A DNA stretch of 24,386 nt from a virus. Below, piece by piece: positions 3-24,386 of the stretch. Each line of letters opens with the position of its first letter. Within the stretch, counting starts at the first letter, position 1. The translations under genes were made by a program, and so were the position numbers. The notes under the pieces were generated by a model. That model did no database searches. It was not told where the DNA came from and saw only the letters and a program-made list of their open reading frames with translations. The DNA is taken from positions 1 to 24,386 of the IMG/VR virus record IMGVR_UViG_3300032291_000088. One strand, given 5' to 3'.

Positions 3-446
3 AAACTTGTATCTCGTGATTACGTACGCCGCGAGATCCCAATGGATCTAAATGTATCTCAAGAAGAACAACGCGTTGACATTGAAGAAATGCGTGATGC
101 TCTGCGTGTATCTGTTGCGCAGTATGCTCAGGCTATTCCTGCCTTGGCAGCGCAAGGCCAAGACCCTTCAGAGATTGTCAGCCGCATCGCAGCTGTTATC
201 CAAGGTCGGCAAAAGGGCCTCTCGCTAGAATCAGTAGTGGAGAAGGCTTTTGCTCCACCACCGGCACCAGAGATGCCACCACAGATGCCAGGTATGCCTG
301 GCGCTGAACAAATGCTTCCAGCAGCAGGTGCGGCCTCCGCCCCTGCCTCGCAGCAACCTCCAAATCCACAAGGTGGTATGGCCCCTGCTGCTGGTCAAAA
401 ACCCGATATAGCGTCACTACTAGCCGGAATCACCGGCGCAGCATAA
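3..446 (+). CDS. Portal protein, C-terminal end (5' truncated by window)
   Basis: The reading frame is open from the first complete codon in the window, so the ATG at 42 is probably internal and the gene starts upstream. The visible 147 residues begin LVSRDYVRREIPMD, then a helical, acidic segment (VSQEEQRVDIEEMRDALR) and a Pro/Ala/Met/Gln-rich disordered tail (APPPAPEMPPQ, QPPNPQGG) ending SLLAGITGAA. A helical segment followed by a Pro-rich low-complexity tail at the start of a virion gene run matches the C-terminus of phage portal proteins, the dodecameric ring at the capsid vertex through which DNA passes. Large virion genes, scaffold and capsid follow, as expected after a portal. The clip and crown domains are outside the window, so the call rests on position and tail composition; another head protein is possible. 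Confidence 0.55.
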   Translation, partial: KLVSRDYVRREIPMDLNVSQEEQRVDIEEMRDALRVSVAQYAQAIPALAAQGQDPSEIVSRIAAVIQGRQKGLSLESVVEKAFAPPPAPEMPPQMPGMPGAEQMLPAAGAASAPASQQPPNPQGGMAPAAGQKPDIASLLAGITGAA

Positions 447-839: not shown

Positions 840-1242
840 TACACCAATGAATCCATTGGCCGGCGTTTCAGGTCCTGGACCTTATGCAGTCCGAACAGAT
901 AGTTTACGTATGGGTTCTACTTCATACGGCGAAGGCGTAGACACCGCAGAAATTAAATCAGGTGCACCCCTTGCTTCAACTCCAGATCAACGCCCAATGC
1001 CAGCCGCTGAAGTACGCGACGCTGCTATGGCTGCTCCACTAACAGAATTGTATGCTCCAACATCACGTTCTACTGAACCGATCACTGCTGGTATTGATAT
1101 GGGTCCAGGCGCTGGATCATCAGCTTTGATGATGAAGAAGAACACCGTTAAACTTTCAGATTCTCTAGTACAACTATTGCCTTTTGATACTACTGGTGAG
1201 ATAGCAGTGTTGTATCAAGAAGCGCTAGCGCAAGGTAACTGA
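832..1242 (+). CDS. Hypothetical virion-region protein (136 aa)
   Basis: The ORF starts at ATGGCTGAT overlapping the previous gene by eight bases and ends TGATG, sharing one base with the start of the giant gene. The N-terminal two-thirds is rich in Pro, Ala, Gly, Ser and Thr and looks disordered (NPLAGVSGPGPYAVRTD, GAPLASTPDQRPMPAAEV); the C-terminus (VKLSDSLVQLLPFDTTGEIA) looks folded. No catalytic motif or membrane segment is visible. Tight coupling on both sides suggests it is made with the portal and the giant protein. The family is not recognised. Confidence 0.7.
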   Translation: MADTPMNPLAGVSGPGPYAVRTDSLRMGSTSYGEGVDTAEIKSGAPLASTPDQRPMPAAEVRDAAMAAPLTELYAPTSRSTEPITAGIDMGPGAGSSALMMKKNTVKLSDSLVQLLPFDTTGEIAVLYQEALAQGN

Positions 1243-4200
1243 TGGCTGATAATGTTAAAGCAGCAGCGCTAGCCGCAAACCTACAAGGTGAATCAAAGAA
1301 GCAAGTTGACGATCTAGTCAAGGCTCTCTTTGTCCATAAAGAATTATCTAACTTGCCAGCTGATGCTGCTAAAACAAAGTATTCCAAGTTGCCAGCAAGC
1401 CAGCAACAAGATTTAATAAAGAAGTTTGGTACAGAAGACCCATTAACTAAGCCATCTCAAGGATGGTTAAGTACTGCCTTCAAGTACAACCCAATTACTC
1501 TTGCTTTCAAAGGCGCTATAGAACTATCAGATCTTGCTACACGTACTTATCGTGCTGTTGCTATCCCAATGTCACAAGGCGAAATCGGCTTTGCTTGGGA
1601 TCAAGCTAACGACAAAGGTGACAAGGTATACAACGAAGGCCGTATTGACAAGGCAAAATCAAAGTATGGCCAAGATGCTGTAGATATTGCTATGCGTATT
1701 AAGTCAGGCGAAGATGTAGGAAAACTACTTGCTACCGCAACTCCTGAACAGCAGAAGTATATTATGTTGGCTGATCCTAATAACACAGTCATACCAGGCG
1801 TTAGTAACATCGAGCAAGAACGTGGACTCTTTAATGACGTTCTATCTGAAGTAGACCGCGCTAAGTTCTCTCCAGGACGTCAGTTAGCAAATGCTATTCT
1901 TCCTGAAGAACTTGAAAAGAATGGTTTCCTATACGGCCTAGTATCAGGAACTACTGATACTGCTTTCCGTTTGTTTGCTGATCCACTTGTTGTGGCATCA
2001 AAGATCAAATCTTTGTACACAGTCAGTAAGTACTCTTTAGATGTTATGGCTAAAGGCGAGAAGGTAAATGACTATTTTGCCAAGCCAACTACTGTTGCTT
2101 TCTGGGATCAGTACGGAACAGCGCTTAATAGATACACCACTTTACAAAAGTCTGGTGGCAAAGGTAAAGATCTAGTTGCTGCTAGAGATGAACTTAAACT
2201 ATTAGCTCCTGAGTTTGGCCCAGAGGTAATTAAAGTTCTTCAGAAGTCAGATGTGGTAGATGCCTTTACAGCAAAAGCCTTCCTGCTTAACACAGAAGAA
2301 TCAGTTAATATGCTTAAAGGAGCAGTTGGTCGCAAGCGAGTAATCCTTCCGCGCTTAGATGCTACACGCAAAGCACGAGTAAAAATTATTACTACGTCTA
2401 ATAAGTTTATTAGCATTGATCGCTTTGCGCCACGTATTATAGATGATCTATATGGTCCTCTATCTGATACAGATGGAATCCGTAAGGCAATATCTGAAGA
2501 CGGAACCATTATCGGTGCTAAGGTTAAAGACCTTACAAACCAAAAAGGTTTCGCACGTTTACCTTCCTTGGCTATTGGTGCTCGCTTAGATAGATTTAAG
2601 GCTAAATTTGCCATTGCTCCTATGTTCAAAGATGACGTTTTTAACGTTATGGCAAAGGATGCTTCTACTCAGGTTTACCGTTTAGCGCGTTTAGTCTTGC
2701 CTAAGCAAGATTCAAAGATGATTGCTGAAACCTTTGAGGCCATTGAAAATATGGGCGAGCGCAAAGAAATGGTTAAGGGTATTTGGGGGACTATCGCAGA
2801 AGCACGCGGTCTAAACCTTACCGAAGCCGGTCAAAAGATTGTTAACCAAACTATTACTAAAGGTGACTCTAAGTTCTCTGTAGCAAACTTCGCAGATGAC
2901 TTTCAGGACATCGGTTCTATCCCATCTGACTTTAATCCTTTTATGACCACTCCTAGTCTTGTAGACATTGATCGTGCTGCCGCACGTTCTGGTCTAATAA
3001 GCCGACTATGGGGTCAGTCAAATAAAGAGTGGGTAGATAAGATGACTGGATACTGGTCATTCTTGACGCTCGCTGGTCCTCGTTACGCTATTCGTAACGC
3101 ATCTGAAGATCTAATGGTTCACCTAGCTATCGGTGGCAGCCCTTGGGGTCTTGCTAAGAACCGTTACCTTTCAACTCGTGTAAACACTGCGATAGAAGGC
3201 GCAAGAGCATCTAAGAATTGGTCTGAGAATCCACTAGGCGGTATGCTTCGCATCCTAAATAAGAACGAAGCTGCTAAATTTGAAACTCAAATTGCTGGAA
3301 TTGACGATGCTATTGTTAACGCACGTGAAGAAATCAAAGCAATTCGTGAACAAATTAAGATTACTACAGATCCTGCTGCCAAGGTATCCCTTGAAGCAAA
3401 GATTGATGAGTTAAAAGCCATAACAACTGTATCTGCCACCGAGCAGACACGCAGAATTATGGCTACTGCCCTAACTTCTGGAAGAATTAACCGGTACCGC
3501 AAGGCACTAGGTATGAAACCTATGTTTGAAGAAGAAGCAGGAATACTCGCAGAGCATCTTATCTACGGAAACCTAGAAAATTCTATGTCTATTGTCTCCG
3601 AAGGAGCAAGTAACTTTGCTACTGGTGGAGATTACATCACTAGAGCTACTATCTTTACCCGTTCACACGGAGTTCGTAGCGAAGCCCTAGTAATCAATGA
3701 GCCTAAAGCGGCTAAGTATGGGCCAGCAAGAGCAGATCGTGAATATCGCGCTCGTGCGCTGGGCAACCAAGATGAAGCAGCGTTACTTACTTGGCTTATG
3801 CGTATTAACTACTACGCAAATGATGAATTAGGCGCTATCGCTGTAGCAAACTTGAGCAATACAAAAGATGGCAAAGAACTTGCTATTGGTAAGATTTTGG
3901 ACTGGATGAAAGCAAACCCATCTTTCCGTACAGAAGCACAACTTGCCGCACGTAACATTGATGAAAGACAACACGCAGAGATTGTTTACAAGCGTGCTGC
4001 TGAGATCTTTGAAAAGCGTGGAGCAACAGCTGATTCTGCTAAAGAATTAAACCTAGAATTACTAGGCAAGATACGCACAACTAACGATCAGGGTGAAGCT
4101 ATCATCTCTGGTAAGTTGTCACTAGATGATGTATCTAATTTAGATGATGCTGACATTCCATCATACGTACTTGGACCAGCACTTGTGCCTATTTCTGATT

Positions 4201-6074
4201 CAGGCAACATCACCTCATCTTTGATGACAAAGGGTTGGACTTGGCTAGGCTTGGCTAACGCCCGTCTATCTCGTCAGCCTATTGTGTTTAATGAGATTAT
4301 TAGCCTTCGCAAGCAGATGAAGAAGTCTGGCTTCGAATCTGCCTACATTAACTCAGTAGTTAGTAAAGTAGATCAAGCCGATCCAAAGAAGATTGCTAAG
4401 GCAACTATTGCCGCAAAGCGTCAGTTTGCTAACTTAGTAGAAGAACGTGCTGTATCTCAGGTAATCGAGTATGTGGATAACCCACTTGTTCGTACCCAGT
4501 TAGCCTTTAACGTTCGTAACTTCTCACGTTTCTATCGTGCTACTGAAGACTTCTATCGTCGTATGTACCGTGTTGTTAAGTACAACCCAATGGCTATCCG
4601 TAAGGCATCGCTTACATATGATGGTATTAGCCATAATGGTTGGATTCAAGAAGACGATCAAGGTGAAAAGTACTTTGTCTACCCAGGCATAGAGCCAATC
4701 TATGCTGCGGTAAGAAGCGCAATGACAACAATGGGTATTCCAGCAGAGTTTAAGACACCTTTCCCAGTACAATTTGGTGCTCAGGTAAAGATGCTTACCC
4801 CATCCTTAAATCAAGATTCCTTGATCCCTACATTCTCAGGTCCATTAGCCGGTGTCTCTATGAAGATGCTTTCTAATATCGTAGATGTAGCTGGCGCTCC
4901 TGGCGCTGCTGACCATATTACTGAGTTAACTCTTGGTAAGTATGCTGTAGATCGTTCTTTCGTTTCTGCTTTCTTGCCTGCTCACATTAACCGTTTATAC
5001 GAAGTAATGGATACAGATGAGCGTGACTCACAGTACGCATCTGCTTGGCGTAAAGCGGTTACTTACCTAGAAGCTGGTGGTCACGGACTACCAGAGAAGT
5101 TTGATGAGACCGGTAATCTAATACCTCCTTCAATCGAGGAACAAGAACTTTACCGTCAGCGTATTAAGAACACAGTTCTTGGTATTCTTGGTACACGTTT
5201 CGTATTTGGATTCTTTGCTCCAGCTTCACCATCTGTACAGTTAAAAGCTGATATGGCTCAATGGATTAGCGACAATGGTAAAGCTAACTTTAAGCAGGCT
5301 TGGAACAGTTTATTGGACCAATACCCAGGCGATTACGACGCAGCAATGACCAAATGGGTAGAATTATTCCCTAACGAAATACCATTTACGATCCCTGAAT
5401 CTGAAAAGAAAACAGTTGCTATTATCAAATACGCAGAAGAATCAGGCGAATTTGTAGACAAGAATCAAGGCTTATTCTCAAAGTATCCACAGGGAGCAGC
5501 GTTCCTTATTCCTAATAAGTCAGGTTTCTCTTGGGATGCCTATAAGACTATGAAGGATATGGGTCTAAAGTACAACAAGCGTGTAGGTGATTACCTGCGT
5601 GAAGTACAAACAGCCTCTGATCTACAGAAGTATTACGCAAAGAAGAATGAATATGAGTCTTCTCTTGAAACTATGGTTACAGACTTTGAACGTAGTCTTG
5701 CTCGTCAAGACTTTACAGAGTGGGCTAAGGTATTCAAAGCTGGCCGTCCATTAGTTCAAGAAGAACTAGCAGAAGGTGGCAAGAAGGCAATCGAGCGCAT
5801 ACGCGCTCTTGATGACTTACGCAATATGCTAAATGATAAAACTGTAACCGTTCGTGGTCCTATCCAGAAATCCCTTAAAGATATGTTGGATACCTACGAT
5901 GACTACAAGATGCAGAAGGAAGCGCTAAGCACACTTTCAGGTACAAGTAACCTTGTATCGTTTATGAAAGATGAAGCAATTGTTAGATTACGTGAACTTG
6001 CTAAGGCAAATGAAAATACTATGAGTGCTTACAACACAATGTTTGCATCGTTAATTGGAGATACAAATGGCTGA
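1242..6074 (+). CDS. Giant virion-associated protein, putative internal/ejection protein (1610 aa)
   Basis: An uninterrupted 1610-codon gene, the largest in the window, starting one base inside the previous stop. The protein is mainly helical. Landmarks: a predicted coiled coil at about residues 675-735 (EIKAIREQIK, KIDELKAI); an aromatic-rich segment at about 1085-1120 (NVRNFSRFYRATEDFYRRMY); a hydrophobic stretch near 1310-1331 (ILGTRFVFGFFAPAS); and a helical C-terminus rich in Lys and Glu. No catalytic motif is evident, and there is no tape-measure-like heptad monotony. Position between portal and scaffold is unusual for a tape measure but fits a large internal capsid protein of the podoviral ejectosome type (compare T7 gp15 and gp16 in role, not sequence). 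Hydrophobic segments could help it cross the host envelope. The coding call is certain; the role is inferred. Confidence 0.9.
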   Translation: MADNVKAAALAANLQGESKKQVDDLVKALFVHKELSNLPADAAKTKYSKLPASQQQDLIKKFGTEDPLTKPSQGWLSTAFKYNPITLAFKGAIELSDLATRTYRAVAIPMSQGEIGFAWDQANDKGDKVYNEGRIDKAKSKYGQDAVDIAMRIKSGEDVGKLLATATPEQQKYIMLADPNNTVIPGVSNIEQERGLFNDVLSEVDRAKFSPGRQLANAILPEELEKNGFLYGLVSGTTDTAFRLFADPLVVASKIKSLYTVSKYSLDVMAKGEKVNDYFAKPTTVAFWDQYGTALNRYTTLQKSGGKGKDLVAARDELKLLAPEFGPEVIKVLQKSDVVDAFTAKAFLLNTEESVNMLKGAVGRKRVILPRLDATRKARVKIITTSNKFISIDRFAPRIIDDLYGPLSDTDGIRKAISEDGTIIGAKVKDLTNQKGFARLPSLAIGARLDRFKAKFAIAPMFKDDVFNVMAKDASTQVYRLARLVLPKQDSKMIAETFEAIENMGERKEMVKGIWGTIAEARGLNLTEAGQKIVNQTITKGDSKFSVANFADDFQDIGSIPSDFNPFMTTPSLVDIDRAAARSGLISRLWGQSNKEWVDKMTGYWSFLTLAGPRYAIRNASEDLMVHLAIGGSPWGLAKNRYLSTRVNTAIEGARASKNWSENPLGGMLRILNKNEAAKFETQIAGIDDAIVNAREEIKAIREQIKITTDPAAKVSLEAKIDELKAITTVSATEQTRRIMATALTSGRINRYRKALGMKPMFEEEAGILAEHLIYGNLENSMSIVSEGASNFATGGDYITRATIFTRSHGVRSEALVINEPKAAKYGPARADREYRARALGNQDEAALLTWLMRINYYANDELGAIAVANLSNTKDGKELAIGKILDWMKANPSFRTEAQLAARNIDERQHAEIVYKRAAEIFEKRGATADSAKELNLELLGKIRTTNDQGEAIISGKLSLDDVSNLDDADIPSYVLGPALVPISDSGNITSSLMTKGWTWLGLANARLSRQPIVFNEIISLRKQMKKSGFESAYINSVVSKVDQADPKKIAKATIAAKRQFANLVEERAVSQVIEYVDNPLVRTQLAFNVRNFSRFYRATEDFYRRMYRVVKYNPMAIRKASLTYDGISHNGWIQEDDQGEKYFVYPGIEPIYAAVRSAMTTMGIPAEFKTPFPVQFGAQVKMLTPSLNQDSLIPTFSGPLAGVSMKMLSNIVDVAGAPGAADHITELTLGKYAVDRSFVSAFLPAHINRLYEVMDTDERDSQYASAWRKAVTYLEAGGHGLPEKFDETGNLIPPSIEEQELYRQRIKNTVLGILGTRFVFGFFAPASPSVQLKADMAQWISDNGKANFKQAWNSLLDQYPGDYDAAMTKWVELFPNEIPFTIPESEKKTVAIIKYAEESGEFVDKNQGLFSKYPQGAAFLIPNKSGFSWDAYKTMKDMGLKYNKRVGDYLREVQTASDLQKYYAKKNEYESSLETMVTDFERSLARQDFTEWAKVFKAGRPLVQEELAEGGKKAIERIRALDDLRNMLNDKTVTVRGPIQKSLKDMLDTYDDYKMQKEALSTLSGTSNLVSFMKDEAIVRLRELAKANENTMSAYNTMFASLIGDTNG

Positions 6075-9873: not shown

Positions 9874-9964
9874 AGCGATAAGAAGACCAGTAGTAGGAGC
9901 CATACCCGTCCCCCAACGGACTATGAGGCCTACGTCAATCAAACAAATGATAGGGAGAAGGACT

Positions 9965-10432
9965 ATGTCCAATTACGACTACGAGGATGACGATGACTTC
10001 GATATGGATTCATCAAGTAATGACCTTGTAAAGCAACTACGTAAGGCGTCTAAGCAAAAGGATAAGGAACTCGCTGAACTTCGTTCACAGTTCGATGGCC
10101 TAAGCAAAGCGCAACGTGAAAGAACTATCAAGGATACCCTCGAACGTCGCGGGGTAAATGCGAAGATAGCTTCGTTTATCCCACAGGACATTGAACCAAC
10201 TGAAGATTCGGTGTCTAAGTGGCTTGAAGATTATGCCGATGTTTTCGGCATTGATTTAGGCCAAGCCCAAACTACGAATGTAGATCCAGCCAACGCAGCA
10301 GCGTACAAGAGAATGACTAATACAGCGGAACAGGGTATGACCCCAGACCGAGGTGCAGATGTTATGTCTCGTTTAATGAACGCAAACAGCAAGGAAGAAC
10401 TGGACGAAATTATTCGTCAGTCTGGGATTTAA
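9965..10432 (+). CDS. Capsid scaffolding-like protein (155 aa)
   Basis: Start ATG 9965 is preceded by AGGGAGAAGG; an in-frame ATG at 9923 would add 14 residues with a poorer ribosome site. The N-terminus is strikingly acidic (YDYEDDDDFDMDSSS), then comes a charged helix (DLVKQLRKASKQKDKELAEL) and a compact middle part (RRGVNAKIASFIPQDIEPTE). The C-terminus is helical (MSRLMNANSKEELDEIIRQS). Small acidic helical proteins directly before the major capsid gene are typically scaffolds, which guide procapsid assembly and leave before DNA fills the head. No protease motif is visible, so any scaffold processing would need another enzyme. The position and composition support the call; no sequence motif proves it. 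Confidence 0.75.
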   Translation: MSNYDYEDDDDFDMDSSSNDLVKQLRKASKQKDKELAELRSQFDGLSKAQRERTIKDTLERRGVNAKIASFIPQDIEPTEDSVSKWLEDYADVFGIDLGQAQTTNVDPANAAAYKRMTNTAEQGMTPDRGADVMSRLMNANSKEELDEIIRQSGI

Positions 10433-10462: not shown

Positions 10463-11398
10463 ATGGCAATTCCAGGTGGTGCCCTAACCGGTACATCGGA
10501 CATTAGCGCTCTCGTAAAAGCAGCATACGATCAGTATGTAAGAATGGCACTACGTTCCATTCCTGTTATGCGCGGTCTCGCAGATGTCAAACCAGTCCAA
10601 CAGGCTATGCCAGGTTCGTCAGTTGTTTTCTCTATCTATTCAGATCTAGCACAAGCTACATCTACATTGACAGAAACTACTGATGTATCAAGCATTGCTC
10701 TTGGCAACCCAAACCAAGTTACAGTAACTCTGAACGAATACGGTTCAGCTGTAACAACAACAAAGAAGTTAAACCTAACTTCATTCAACGACGTTGATTC
10801 AGCTCTTGCTGACATCATCGCGTACAACTCAGCAGACTCAATTGATGCTGTAGTAGCAGCTGTCCTAACAGGCGGCACCAACGTAATCTACGGTGGCAAC
10901 GCAACTACAACAAACACAATTGATGCCGCAGACACAATGTCTGTAGCTGCGATCCGTAAGGCTGTAACAGAACTTCGTACTGCGAAGGCTGTTCCACGCA
11001 TCAACGATCTATACGCTGCATACCTACACCCACGTCAGGCAGCTGACTTGCGTGCTGAATCAGGCACTGGTGGATTCCAGGCTCTAACCCAGTACGTAGA
11101 CCGCACACCATTCGTAGCAGGCGCCGTAGGCGTCATCGAAGGTGCGTTCGTTGTTGAGACACCTCGTGTGCCTTTCGCAGCTAACACAAACTCTCCAGCA
11201 GTAAATGTCTACAAGGCAGTTGTTGCAGGTCGTGAAGCCCTAGCGGAAGCACAGGCTCAGGACATTGAGACCATCATTGGACCAGAGATTGACGCTTTGC
11301 GTCGTTTCCGCACCATTGGTTGGTACTACTTCGGTGGCTTTGCTCGCCTCCGTGAAGCAGCTCTCTACCGTATTGAGACTTCTTCAAGCCTCGGCTAA
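10463..11398 (+). CDS. Major capsid protein (311 aa)
   Basis: The gene follows the scaffold by 30 bases, with GAAAGG before the ATG. The N-terminus has a helical arm (DISALVKAAYDQYVRMALRS), then an extended beta region (PGSSVVFSIYSDLAQATSTL, NPNQVTVTLNEYGSAVTTTK) resembling the E-loop of HK97-fold capsid proteins. A long helix follows (IAAIRKAVTEL-like, read as SVAAIRKAVTELRTAKAVPR), then YAAYLHPRQAADLRAE and the C-terminal beta and helix elements (IIGPEIDALRRFRTIGWYYF). Length, position and this pattern fit an HK97-fold coat protein, possibly related to the N4gp56 group (uncertain). It would assemble in many copies around the scaffold and portal. A stable hairpin lies just after the stop. 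Confidence 0.85.
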   Translation: MAIPGGALTGTSDISALVKAAYDQYVRMALRSIPVMRGLADVKPVQQAMPGSSVVFSIYSDLAQATSTLTETTDVSSIALGNPNQVTVTLNEYGSAVTTTKKLNLTSFNDVDSALADIIAYNSADSIDAVVAAVLTGGTNVIYGGNATTTNTIDAADTMSVAAIRKAVTELRTAKAVPRINDLYAAYLHPRQAADLRAESGTGGFQALTQYVDRTPFVAGAVGVIEGAFVVETPRVPFAANTNSPAVNVYKAVVAGREALAEAQAQDIETIIGPEIDALRRFRTIGWYYFGGFARLREAALYRIETSSSLG

Positions 11399-13096: not shown

Positions 13097-15184
<2,088 letters not shown>

Positions 15185-15185
<1 letters not shown>

Positions 15186-16626: not shown

Positions 16627-17208
16627 ATGAAGATAAACGAATACTTTGATCGGGTTGTAGTAATCAACCTAGACCGCAGGCCAGACCGTATGGAGATACT
16701 AGGTCCTCAGTTAGATGAACTAGGAATCCAGTACGAAAGATTCTCAGCAATAGATGGCAAAGAACGTGGTATTAGCCCTATAACTGCTGGAACTATGAGT
16801 CACGTTGAAGTATTAAAGAATCATAGAGATCAAAAAATTCTAGTACTAGAAGATGATGCTTATTTTATAGAAAACTTTAATGAGCAATTTGAGGCAGTAA
16901 TAAAGACGCTACCTAATGACTCAGATATATTTTACTTAGGAGCTTTGCTCCCAAAGCATACAGGTAAAGTAACACCAGTAAATGATAATTGGGCTAGACA
17001 AGTTATGACTACCGGTTCTCACGCTTACTGTATAAATCCAGCAAGAGTAAATTATTTTATAGAAAATCTTGATGGCTATGAATGGTACATAGATATTGGT
17101 CTGCGAGTATTTGCAGAAAAATATAATGCTTACATAACACAGCCTAACCTAGTAACACAATTCCCCTCATACTCTGATCTAAGAGAACGAGAGGTAGATG
17201 ACTTTTGA
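16627..17208 (+). CDS. GT25-family-like glycosyltransferase (193 aa)
   Basis: Motifs fit glycosyltransferase family 25: VVINLDRRPDRM at residues 11-22, SAIDG at 40-44, MSHVEVLK at 57-64 and ILVLEDDAYF at 71-80, whose DD is the expected sugar-nucleotide or metal site. A C-terminal half follows with GSHAYCINPARVNYFIENLD and a YIDIGLRVFAEKYNAY segment. GT25 enzymes transfer sugars (classically galactose) to lipooligosaccharide in bacteria and to collagen in animals. No signal peptide or membrane segment, so it is cytoplasmic. At 193 residues it is near the short end of the family. No Shine-Dalgarno precedes the ATG, and a six-base inverted repeat covers the start. Its TGA overlaps the next start. 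The target is unknown: fibre, capsid or host glycan. Confidence 0.85.
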   Translation: MKINEYFDRVVVINLDRRPDRMEILGPQLDELGIQYERFSAIDGKERGISPITAGTMSHVEVLKNHRDQKILVLEDDAYFIENFNEQFEAVIKTLPNDSDIFYLGALLPKHTGKVTPVNDNWARQVMTTGSHAYCINPARVNYFIENLDGYEWYIDIGLRVFAEKYNAYITQPNLVTQFPSYSDLREREVDDF

Positions 17209-18257
17209 AAGTTGCCATATACACAATCGCACTGAATGAGAGCAAACACGTTGAACGCTGGTATGAATCAAGTCGAGGTGCTGACTACCACCTCATTGCC
17301 GATACCGGCTCAACAGATGACACAGTTGCCAGAGCTACCGCTTTGGGTATCAATGTTATACAAGTTGGGCTTTCACCATTTAGGTTTGATGATGCAAGGA
17401 ACGCATCTCTCACGGCACTGCCGCTAGACATTGACTATTGCATATCGTTAGATATGGATGAAGTAATGGTTGAGGGTTGGCGTGAAGAACTAGAGAAGGC
17501 TCACGCTGACGGAATCACCAGACCAGGTTACAGATTTATTTACGCTTGGACTGAGGATGGCAAGCCATCTGAGGAGATGACAGGCTTTAGAGTCCACGCC
17601 CGTAAGGGTTACAGGTGGAAGTATCCAATCCACGAAGTACCAGATCCTTATGGCATAGAGGAAACAAAGAAGTCTTACAACTTCCAGATCCACCACTTGC
17701 CTGATAACGAGAAGTCTCGTGGCCAGTACTTGCCAATGCTAGAGATGGCAGTAGCTGAAGATCCTAATAGTAGAAACCTTTACTATCTAGGTCGAGAATA
17801 CTTTTACAAAGGTAGGTTTGAGGACTCTCTACGTATACTAAAGGGTTACTTAGATATCAGTAAGTTCCCAGAGGAACGTGGCTATGCGCTTCGCTTGATG
17901 AGCAAGTGCGATCCAAAGATGGAAGAAGAATATCTGATCCGGTCTACCGAAGAATACGGTAGTCGAGAAGCAATACTTGCGTTAGCAAACTATTACTACC
18001 GAACCCAGAATTGGGATGAGTGTTTACTGGTATCTAACGCAGCGTTAACAGTGACAACTAAGTCACTTAACTTCTTATCAGAACATTGGGCGTGGGGCCA
18101 TATGCCTTACGACCTTATAGCAATAAGTAGCTGGCAACTGGGTGACTGGAAGACAGCATATGAGTACGGAAAGCAAGCAGTAGAGATAAGCCCAGATGAT
18201 GAACGACTGGTAAATAACCTGGCGTTTTATAAGGAGAAACTAGATGGCAACACTTAA
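17205..18257 (+). CDS. GT2-family glycosyltransferase with C-terminal TPR-like helices (350 aa)
   Basis: TTG start overlapping the previous TGA. The N-terminal GT-A domain has VAIYTIALNES (3-13), LIADTGSTDDT (30-40) for the nucleotide, RNASLT (65-70) and SLDMDE (81-86), whose DxD-type acidic residues hold metal and UDP- or GDP-sugar. The segment WKYPIHEVP near 158-166 is typical of this subgroup. Residues 185-350 form TPR-like helical hairpins (NSRNLYYLGREYFYKGRFED, ISSWQLGDWKTAYEYGKQAV). Glycosyltransferases with a TPR tail often act in a protein-modifying context. The paired GT25-like gene suggests a two-step modification of one substrate (inference). The last 14 bases overlap the next gene. 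Confidence 0.9.
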   Translation: MKVAIYTIALNESKHVERWYESSRGADYHLIADTGSTDDTVARATALGINVIQVGLSPFRFDDARNASLTALPLDIDYCISLDMDEVMVEGWREELEKAHADGITRPGYRFIYAWTEDGKPSEEMTGFRVHARKGYRWKYPIHEVPDPYGIEETKKSYNFQIHHLPDNEKSRGQYLPMLEMAVAEDPNSRNLYYLGREYFYKGRFEDSLRILKGYLDISKFPEERGYALRLMSKCDPKMEEEYLIRSTEEYGSREAILALANYYYRTQNWDECLLVSNAALTVTTKSLNFLSEHWAWGHMPYDLIAISSWQLGDWKTAYEYGKQAVEISPDDERLVNNLAFYKEKLDGNT

Positions 18258-23093: not shown

Positions 23094-23579
23094 ATGATGT
23101 CTGCGATGATTGCCAAACGAGCCACACCTGCCGCTATTGCTGTCCTGCGACAAGCAACAGCACACTGTCCGAAGCGGAAGAAAGCTAGCGACGGACTGCT
23201 ACCTAGCAAAGCACACATATCTGCCAGCCCTAACAGCGATCACAATACTGGATACGCAGTAGATCTAACCCACGATGCCCTTGGCGGTATTGATTGTAAG
23301 AAGATATTCCAATACCTAAAGGGTGACAAGCGTGTTAAGTACTTGATCTTCCAAGGCAAGATCTGGTCAAGAGATCGTATGAATGAAGGAGACCGTGACT
23401 ACGACGGTTCCAATAAACACAATAAGCATCTACATATTTCTATTAACGATAAGTACGGTCACGATACTTCACCTTGGTTCCCCTGGTTAGGGAAGCCAAA
23501 GGTGATTTCTAAGGTAAAGGCTAAGGTACCTAAACCTTTACCTAAGAAGAAAGACGTCCCATCTCAGAAGGAGAACTAA
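23094..23579 (+). CDS. Endolysin, peptidase M15 family-like (161 aa)
   Basis: The core SDHNTGYAVDLTH (48-60) supplies His50 and Asp57, and KHLHISIND (111-119) supplies His112 and His114. Together they form the HxxGxAxD ... HxH zinc site of M15 (VanY/D,D- or L,D-carboxypeptidase-type) peptidases, which cut peptide cross-bridges of peptidoglycan. No signal peptide is visible, so a holin would be needed for release. The C-terminal 30 residues are Lys/Pro-rich (KVISKVKAKVPKPLPKKKD) and might bind the negatively charged wall. ATGs at 23094 and 23097 both precede MSAMIAK; I give the first. The gene shares its stop with the next start (TAATG). Confidence 0.9.
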   Translation: MMSAMIAKRATPAAIAVLRQATAHCPKRKKASDGLLPSKAHISASPNSDHNTGYAVDLTHDALGGIDCKKIFQYLKGDKRVKYLIFQGKIWSRDRMNEGDRDYDGSNKHNKHLHISINDKYGHDTSPWFPWLGKPKVISKVKAKVPKPLPKKKDVPSQKEN

Positions 23580-23767: not shown

Positions 23768-23790
23768 CCCATAGCAACGCGAGGCAAAAG

Positions 23791-23827
23791 GCCCTCCACC
23801 CTCACGGGTGGGGGGCTTCTTTTTTTA
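23791..23827 (+). terminator. Intrinsic terminator of the late operon
   Basis: GCCCTCCACCC (23791-23801) pairs with GGGTGGGGGGC (23806-23816), eleven pairs with one G-T, around a TCAC loop, followed by a T-rich tail (TTCTTTTTTT). It begins 24 bases after the last lysis gene. On the minus strand the hairpin is followed by CTTTTG, so it might also stop the convergent gene weakly. Confidence 0.95.
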
Positions 23828-23892: not shown

Positions 23893-24201
23893 CTATTCTG
23901 CGTCAACGGGACACGGAATTGTTACTAGATTACCACAGCTAACACAGGTTCCGTCAAGGAAATACCAGACTAATTCGTGGTCTTCAAATGAAGCCATAAT
24001 GTTAAAGACTTGTGAGCCACAGGGACAAACGTGGACAGGTCCTAAAGCCCTGAGATCGGCTCCAAAAGGTTTTGGTAGGGTGTCTGTAATCTGTTTACGA
24101 CGTAGGATTTTGGGCAGCCTTGGTAGACGGAACCGCAGGGTTACTGTACTGTCACTATCGCAGCCCCCAAAGGGCTGCTCTGACTGTTTAATTCGCCTCA
24201 C
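23893..24201 (-). CDS. Zinc-ribbon-like phage protein, CPCGS ... CVSC (102 aa)
   Basis: On the minus strand, the C-terminal part shows HVCPCGSQVFNI and, about 25 residues later, GTCVSCGNLVTIPCPVD: two CxC/CxxC knuckles suited to bind one zinc. Between them lies an acidic and aromatic strand pair (FEDHELVWYFLD). The preceding segment LPKPFGADLRALGPVH is also of a type I have seen in actinobacteriophage proteins. The N-terminus is basic (RFRLPRLPKILRRKQI). GTG 24201 is the only plausible start and sits seven bases from a TACAAT box, so the mRNA may be leaderless. Likely role: nucleic-acid or protein binding, unassigned. It converges on the late terminator and diverges from the proteasome-like gene. 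Confidence 0.8.
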   Translation of the reverse strand: MRRIKQSEQPFGGCDSDSTVTLRFRLPRLPKILRRKQITDTLPKPFGADLRALGPVHVCPCGSQVFNIMASFEDHELVWYFLDGTCVSCGNLVTIPCPVDAE

Positions 24202-24208
24202 GGCTCAT

Positions 24209-24214
24209 ATTGTA
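24209..24214 (-). promoter_or_regulatory. -10 box of a leaderless promoter for the zinc-ribbon gene
   Basis: Read on the minus strand, TACAAT is separated by seven bases (ATGAGCC) from the GTG at 24201, so transcription would begin at or next to the start codon. There is no Shine-Dalgarno. No good -35 match is seen; -10-only promoters are frequent in Actinobacteria. Confidence 0.5.
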
Positions 24215-24226
24215 GCCAAACCAGTA

Positions 24227-24248
24227 GCGTGTCTCTGGTAAGACACGC
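24227..24248. promoter_or_regulatory. Palindrome centred between divergent promoters (putative operator)
   Basis: GCGTGTCT (24227-24234) and AGACACGC (24241-24248) are perfect inverted repeats with a six-base spacer CTGGTA. The centre (24237.5) is one base from the midpoint between the two -10 boxes and covers both expected -35 regions. It could bind a dimeric regulator. No T-run follows, so a terminator is unlikely. Confidence 0.6.
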
Positions 24249-24258
24249 CGATCTCTAG

Positions 24259-24264
24259 TATGAT
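24259..24264 (+). promoter_or_regulatory. -10 box of a leaderless promoter for the proteasome-like gene
   Basis: TATGAT matches the -10 consensus in five of six positions and ends six bases before ATG 24271, so the first transcribed base would be the A of the start codon. There is no ribosome site in the TTTAGT spacer or upstream. The -35 position (TGGTAA, 24236-24241) is poor and lies inside the palindrome. Confidence 0.55.
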
Positions 24265-24270
24265 TTTAGT

Positions 24271-24386
24271 ATGACTACGATCTCAGCTATACAAACGGAC
24301 TATTACGCCGTGCTCTGCGCTGACTCGCAGATCACAGAGGACAACCTAGTAAGTACCTCGACTAGTACACCCAAGATCGTCGAGGT
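24271..24386 (+). CDS. Proteasome beta-subunit/HslV-like Ntn hydrolase (3' truncated by window)
   Basis: Only 38 complete codons are visible: MTTISAIQTDYYAVLCADSQ then ITEDNLVSTSTSTPKIVE. After removal of Met the protein would start with Thr-Thr-Ile, and Asp falls exactly at position 17 in an ADSQxT context; a Lys-Ile follows at 34, one residue from the canonical Lys33. Thr1, Asp17 and Lys33 are the catalytic residues of proteasome beta and HslV proteases. There is no propeptide, so Met removal alone would free the nucleophile, as in HslV. The host may have its own proteasome (Actinobacteria often do). The role in infection is unknown: protein turnover, capsid maturation or host takeover are possibilities. 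The gene runs past the window end. Confidence 0.7.
   Translation, partial: MTTISAIQTDYYAVLCADSQITEDNLVSTSTSTPKIVE

Follow-up and report, generated by a model that had tools for sequence, protein, structure and literature searches.

What kind of protein is encoded by the gene that is cut off at the very end of this viral contig, and what role could it play in a phage? The window, that is, the whole stretch of 24,386 bases that we analyzed, is an entire IMG/VR virus record and represents a partial phage genome, which starts within the portal gene, continues through the scaffold, capsid and tail genes, and breaks off after the first 116 bases of a gene for a proteasome-like protease (24271..24386, plus strand), where the record retains the 5' end of the gene (38 codons and 2 bases). 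Translation from the ATG at 24271 yields MTTISAIQTDYYAVLCADSQITEDNLVSTSTSTPKIVE. The initial annotation took Thr2 as Thr1 and, on this count, arrived at Asp17 and Lys34; its frame, start and residue numbers are exact. The 38-residue fragment alone matches the Pfam Proteasome family with E = 0.0039, under the family cut-off.

The truncated gene and its complete relatives

Relatives were sought through a conserved late gene upstream of the protease gene (23094..23579, plus strand; weakly VanY-like, endolysin-like), which led to 80 viral loci. Six of these (L003, L004, L005, L009, L010 and L044) encode the identical 38 residues and run on into a 185-residue open reading frame (ORF). Many further loci of the 80 have similar N-termini, with ORF lengths of 184-186 residues in the window clade; the remaining ~147 residues of the window's own protein are known from these relatives only. 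Among the first-round loci, 72 extend 2.5 kb or more past the neighboring gene, and 57 of these have the protease gene there; overall, the gene is present in clearly more than a hundred related actinophage loci.

The carrier is a tailed phage of freshwater actinobacteria. WhiB is an actinophage marker, and it is encoded in all 16 relatives tested (the window ends short of the WhiB region). Closest to the TerL, portal and capsid proteins are their counterparts in the records OX376640 and OX376641, named LanE43-AprE7 and LanE43-AprF5 (hereafter E7 and F5), followed by those of Streptomyces Manuelvirus phages. With 'Ca. Planktophila' LanE-43 as the isolation host, E7 and F5 became the first phages of 'Ca. 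Nanopelagicales' to be brought into culture (PMC10202952). They are related phages, with a common set of backbone genes and ~52% identity in the portal, and their protease gene is located directly after the portal gene.

Among the other genes of the window, all on the plus strand, the C-terminal part of the portal gene (3..446) is 80% identical to the portal of the relative G004, and a scaffold-like protein gene (9923..10432; PHROG 7813, with a weak scaffold match to PHROG 648) just precedes the major capsid protein gene (10463..11398; Pfam Phage_capsid_3, 8.5e-21; PHROG 1357, 3e-76). The virion region also encodes a 1610-residue protein (1242-6074) without a significant Pfam or PHROG match, which, judging by its length and location, may be internal to the virion or ejected. 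The tail region includes a collagen-like Gly-x-y tail fibre protein (13428-15185), overlain by a long antisense ORF (13403-14287), apparently an artefact of sequence composition, and two glycosyltransferase-like genes (16627-18257), one of the GT25 family and the other weakly matching GT2 and TPR.

Relationship to known proteasome homologs

The full-length relatives from the window clade match Pfam Proteasome (PF00227) with E-values of 2.3e-7 to 1.7e-12 and scores of 31-48 bits, against a curated cut-off of 22.4, and window-clade proteins match PHROG 1040, "peptidase HslV family", across the protein (1e-22 to 1e-28). A profile search of the PDB returned HslV (3ty6) as the best sequence-profile match (5.5e-10) and also found the beta-proteobacterial proteasome homologue BPH (5ovu). 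The AlphaFold model of a full-length relative (pLDDT 82, pTM 0.81) shows the strands and both helix pairs that characterize the family, and in a Foldseek search with this model, BPH (5ovs) came out on top (5.7e-11, TM 0.74), with 20S beta and HslV next; viral matches were numerous, one of them an annotated phage HslV-like protein. Asp17, Lys34 and Gly47 are invariant in 153/153 distinct relatives, some of which are only ~30% identical, Thr1 is found in 152 of the 153, the sole exception being a truncated sequence, and the GSGG motif and an Asp166-type residue are nearly invariant in this set. The gene is under purifying selection (pN/pS 0.08-0.31).

As judged from these alignments and the predicted structure, the protein is a proteasome-like Ntn hydrolase of group I with a complete catalytic set, most simply read as an enzyme that is presumably active. 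The expectations attached to the initial annotation, namely, an Ntn-hydrolase fold, a downstream Ser/Gly motif and a profile match to the proteasome family, are borne out in the relatives by the AlphaFold model with its Foldseek match to BPH, by the SGG residues and by Pfam Proteasome scores above the cut-off. The absence of a propeptide was likewise read correctly, in that Thr directly follows the initiator Met. The proposed identity as a proteasome beta/HslV-like protease holds as far as a phage-encoded Ntn hydrolase of the proteasome/HslV type with all catalytic residues is concerned, but the equivalog cut-offs do not extend it to HslV or 20S beta: the protein is a divergent group I proteasome homolog and is neither of these in the strict sense. 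It resembles HslV (ClpQ) in the MTTI start, the Thr1/Asp17/Lys33-type set and GSGG, but scores 17-33 bits against the NCBIfam equivalog cut-offs of 137 and 157.75. With 20S beta, it shares the fold and the catalytic residues, whereas the propeptide is missing from the protein and the alpha subunit from the phage; the score against the archaeal 20S beta equivalog is 24-34 bits, compared with a cut-off of 224, and the bacterial 20S beta model gave no significant match among the window-clade proteins. BPH, the best match among solved folds, likewise lacks a propeptide and has no known dedicated unfoldase, although it is the product of a bacterial gene and is ~22% identical to the phage protein, which was modelled as a monomer.

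The category itself is already known, both from PHROG 1040 and from PPH and AAH, the group I proteasome homologs described in phage genomes by Fuchs, Alva and Lupas in 2021 (PMC8665760). The proteins of PHROG 1040 have the same catalytic layout, but the cluster is an annotation only, and the nearest annotated phage protein is ~31% identical. PPH comprises ~140 residues and lacks helix H2 (PMC8665760), whereas the phage protein has 185 residues and, in the AlphaFold model, both helices 50-59 and 70-88; by length and by the modelled H2, it is not PPH. AAH was not found in any actinobacterial phage by Fuchs et al. (PMC8665760), a gap on which the present family may bear. The 'Planktophila' phages E7 and F5 carry one proteasome-like gene each, with products 32-36% identical to the window-clade protein. 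Two narrow-pattern scans of bacterial and archaeal genomes found no relative, a plasmid search yielded four matches, all weak, and PADLOC gave no match.

Each phage genome encodes a single proteasome-type ORF, and no gene for an alpha subunit was found in the phage genomes examined. The two PF00227 matches per genome, considered as a possible alpha and beta pair, proved to be two halves of one ORF. The partner ATPase gene that the initial annotation proposed to look for did not materialize: unlike HslV, which has HslU as its partner, the phage lacks HslU; AAA_2 gave no match in any of 11 phage genomes, and no AAA+ unfoldase was found. The sole AAA match in these 11 genomes, in G009, was considered as an unfoldase and rejected because it is the DnaB helicase. 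In the wider family, too, a search for co-occurring AAA+ partners came up empty, and action without ATP or with a host partner has been raised (Fuchs et al., PMC8665760).

Genomic location and upstream region of the protease gene

The protease gene occupies four distinct slots: the start of the replication operon, the position directly after the portal gene, a position after the capsid gene, and the interior of the primase module. Window-clade phages have it as the first gene of the replication operon (132 loci, some on overlapping contigs); in G004, it is followed by genes for a Cas4-like exonuclease, WhiB, DnaB helicase, a resolvase, primase and a sigma factor. The exception in this clade is L058, where the gene separates the zinc-finger part of the primase from the Toprim part. 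In the sister clade (G009-type), it directly follows the portal gene in 80/80 loci, as it also does in E7, F5 and G026, and in G015 the order is the capsid gene, two small genes and the protease gene. The gene is found among head genes in the G009-type phages, E7, F5, G026 and G015; in L058 and the rest of the window clade it lies away from them.

The post-portal proteases of G009, on the one hand, and F5, E7 and G026, on the other hand, are 29-30% identical, whereas the adjacent portals are 81-84% identical, which indicates that the gene has probably been exchanged, with distant homologs replacing one another in place; fast divergence could instead account for part of this gap in identity. 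The protease of the F5/G026 type clusters with that of the L058 type, with a local support of 0.97. One related record of 35.6 kb, G018, which may be incomplete, has portal, scaffold and capsid genes and no protease match.

The protease gene appears to have a promoter of its own, as the initial annotation held, an interpretation supported by the strong terminator after the late genes and by a conserved -10-like hexamer. The late operon ends in an intrinsic terminator (about 23789..23826, plus strand) that consists of a 13-pair stem followed by a T run, with a folding z-score of -3.9. The -10-like hexamer, TATGAT (24259..24264, plus strand), ends 6 nt before the ATG, which would imply a leaderless mRNA. 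A TAnnnT hexamer is found 5-7 nt before the protease ATG in 76/78 distinct upstream sequences (~9% in shuffles); given this spacing, the protease mRNA is probably leaderless. The -35 region contains a conserved GACACGCCG motif (24242..24250, plus strand; one copy in the window), and either GACACGCCG or GACACACCG occurs in 76 of the 78 upstream sequences. The possibility that GACACGCCG is a genome-wide regulatory site was rejected, with at most one copy per genome; a 9-base match outside the window clade may be due to chance. Two window-clade homologs, L068:9887 and L073:9859, start at ATA and TTG, respectively, and lack the conserved promoter, with a different sequence upstream.

On the opposite strand, the protease gene is adjoined by a divergent ORF of 102 amino acids (23893..24201, minus strand), a conserved neighbor with zinc-ribbon-like CxCG and CxxCG pairs, a homolog of which is present, in the same orientation, in 124/132 loci; it has no Pfam or PHROG match. 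The sequence upstream of its GTG start includes a -10-like TACAAT 7 nt away (24209..24214, minus strand), and the 70-base interval at 24201-24271 appears to hold two divergent promoters, both apparently leaderless, together with a palindrome. The palindrome, GCGTGTCT-CTGGTA-AGACACGC (24228..24249), is operator-like, with 8-bp arms, and overlaps the -35 region. A hairpin of at least 6 bp is present in 73/78 relatives, and the sequence of the arms varies; possibly, this element is an operator for the zinc-ribbon protein or for a phage regulator.

Possible roles in phage infection

The explanation that we favor, and that, taken as a whole, might equally well prove right or wrong, is that this phage proteasome-like threonine peptidase, nearest to BPH and HslV in fold, is an accessory takeover enzyme. 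Because there is no propeptide, removal of the initiator Met by the host methionine aminopeptidase would be expected to expose Thr1, and the subunits could form a homo-oligomeric ring or double ring, by analogy with BPH. Lacking its own unfoldase, the enzyme would cut unfolded, small or adaptor-delivered proteins, or borrow a host ATPase, and during infection it might degrade excess phage proteins or host proteins involved in regulation, stress or defence. A role in takeover or counter-defence is suggested by the mobility of the gene, its replacement, its apparent absence in one relative, and its position in the replication operon. A bolder version, which we regard as rather unlikely, casts the protein as a self-contained, ATPase-free phage proteasome that has repeatedly been replaced and moved within the genome, and that serves in an arms race by eliminating defence or regulatory proteins of the host. 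If true, a viral proteasome-type machine would for the first time have a known function, and its carriers are phages of the most abundant freshwater actinobacteria. A search of the literature found no experimental study of phage members with respect to activity, oligomeric state, expression timing or target.

The main rival, because of the portal-adjacent position of the gene in sister phages, is virion maturation, whereby the protease would trim scaffold, portal or internal head proteins, replacing the usual prohead protease. The post-portal location in all G009-type loci, E7, F5 and G026, the proximity to the capsid gene in G015, and the absence of matches to known capsid-protease families in a PHROG scan of 20 window proteins are all compatible with such a function. 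We nevertheless consider it unlikely. The window-clade gene heads the replication operon under its own, separate promoter, and that of L058 resides inside the primase module. Proteases that are only ~30% identical, in one slot beside conserved head genes, are unexpected for an enzyme matched to its capsid, and the probable exchange in place speaks more for an accessory protease than for a dedicated capsid protease. Furthermore, G018, albeit possibly incomplete, retains its head genes without a protease match, and the Streptomyces relative Kumquat, with a colinear capsid protein, has no annotated protease. The idea of a capsid protease put forward in the initial annotation is weakened for the window clade, where the gene seems exchangeable and is part of the replication operon, although in sister phages the gene immediately follows that for the portal.

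Interference with host proteolysis appears distinctly improbable. The phage protein would mix or compete with the Pup-proteasome or Clp, or would use the Mpa/ARC or Clp ATPase, which would fit the lack of a detectable unfoldase or alpha subunit in the phage; the Pup-proteasome is present in many actinobacteria. However, the overall similarity is of the HslV/BPH type, with the window-clade proteins giving no significant match to bacterial 20S beta, and the literature search turned up no paper linking 'Planktophila' to a proteasome. Less probable still is a highly specific Ntn enzyme, such as a protein ligase or amidase. Different chemistries are possible on the Ntn fold, and the archaeal connectase, a monomeric relative, has the same catalytic residues; the phage protein, however, has no connectase-type insertion, agrees with compact group I members in length and helix pattern, and has its closest folds in Foldseek among peptidases. 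Finally, a chance resemblance of the 38-residue fragment to a proteasome N-terminus, which its sub-threshold Pfam score by itself would allow, is ruled out for practical purposes by full-length relatives that have the identical start, exceed the cut-off, fold as proteasome subunits according to AlphaFold and Foldseek, and evolve under purifying selection.

Compared with the previously described phage homologs, what is new here is the actinophage setting, the prevalence of the gene, its occurrence in four slots, its apparent replacement in place, and a cultured test system: the gene is present in E7 and F5, phages with a known host, which makes a concrete test of a viral proteasome-like enzyme possible. 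A further proteasome-like gene, with a basic C-terminal tail, is encoded by the 129-kb Actinomycetia phage DSL-LC01 (L153:6001-6690), where it adjoins a WhiB gene.
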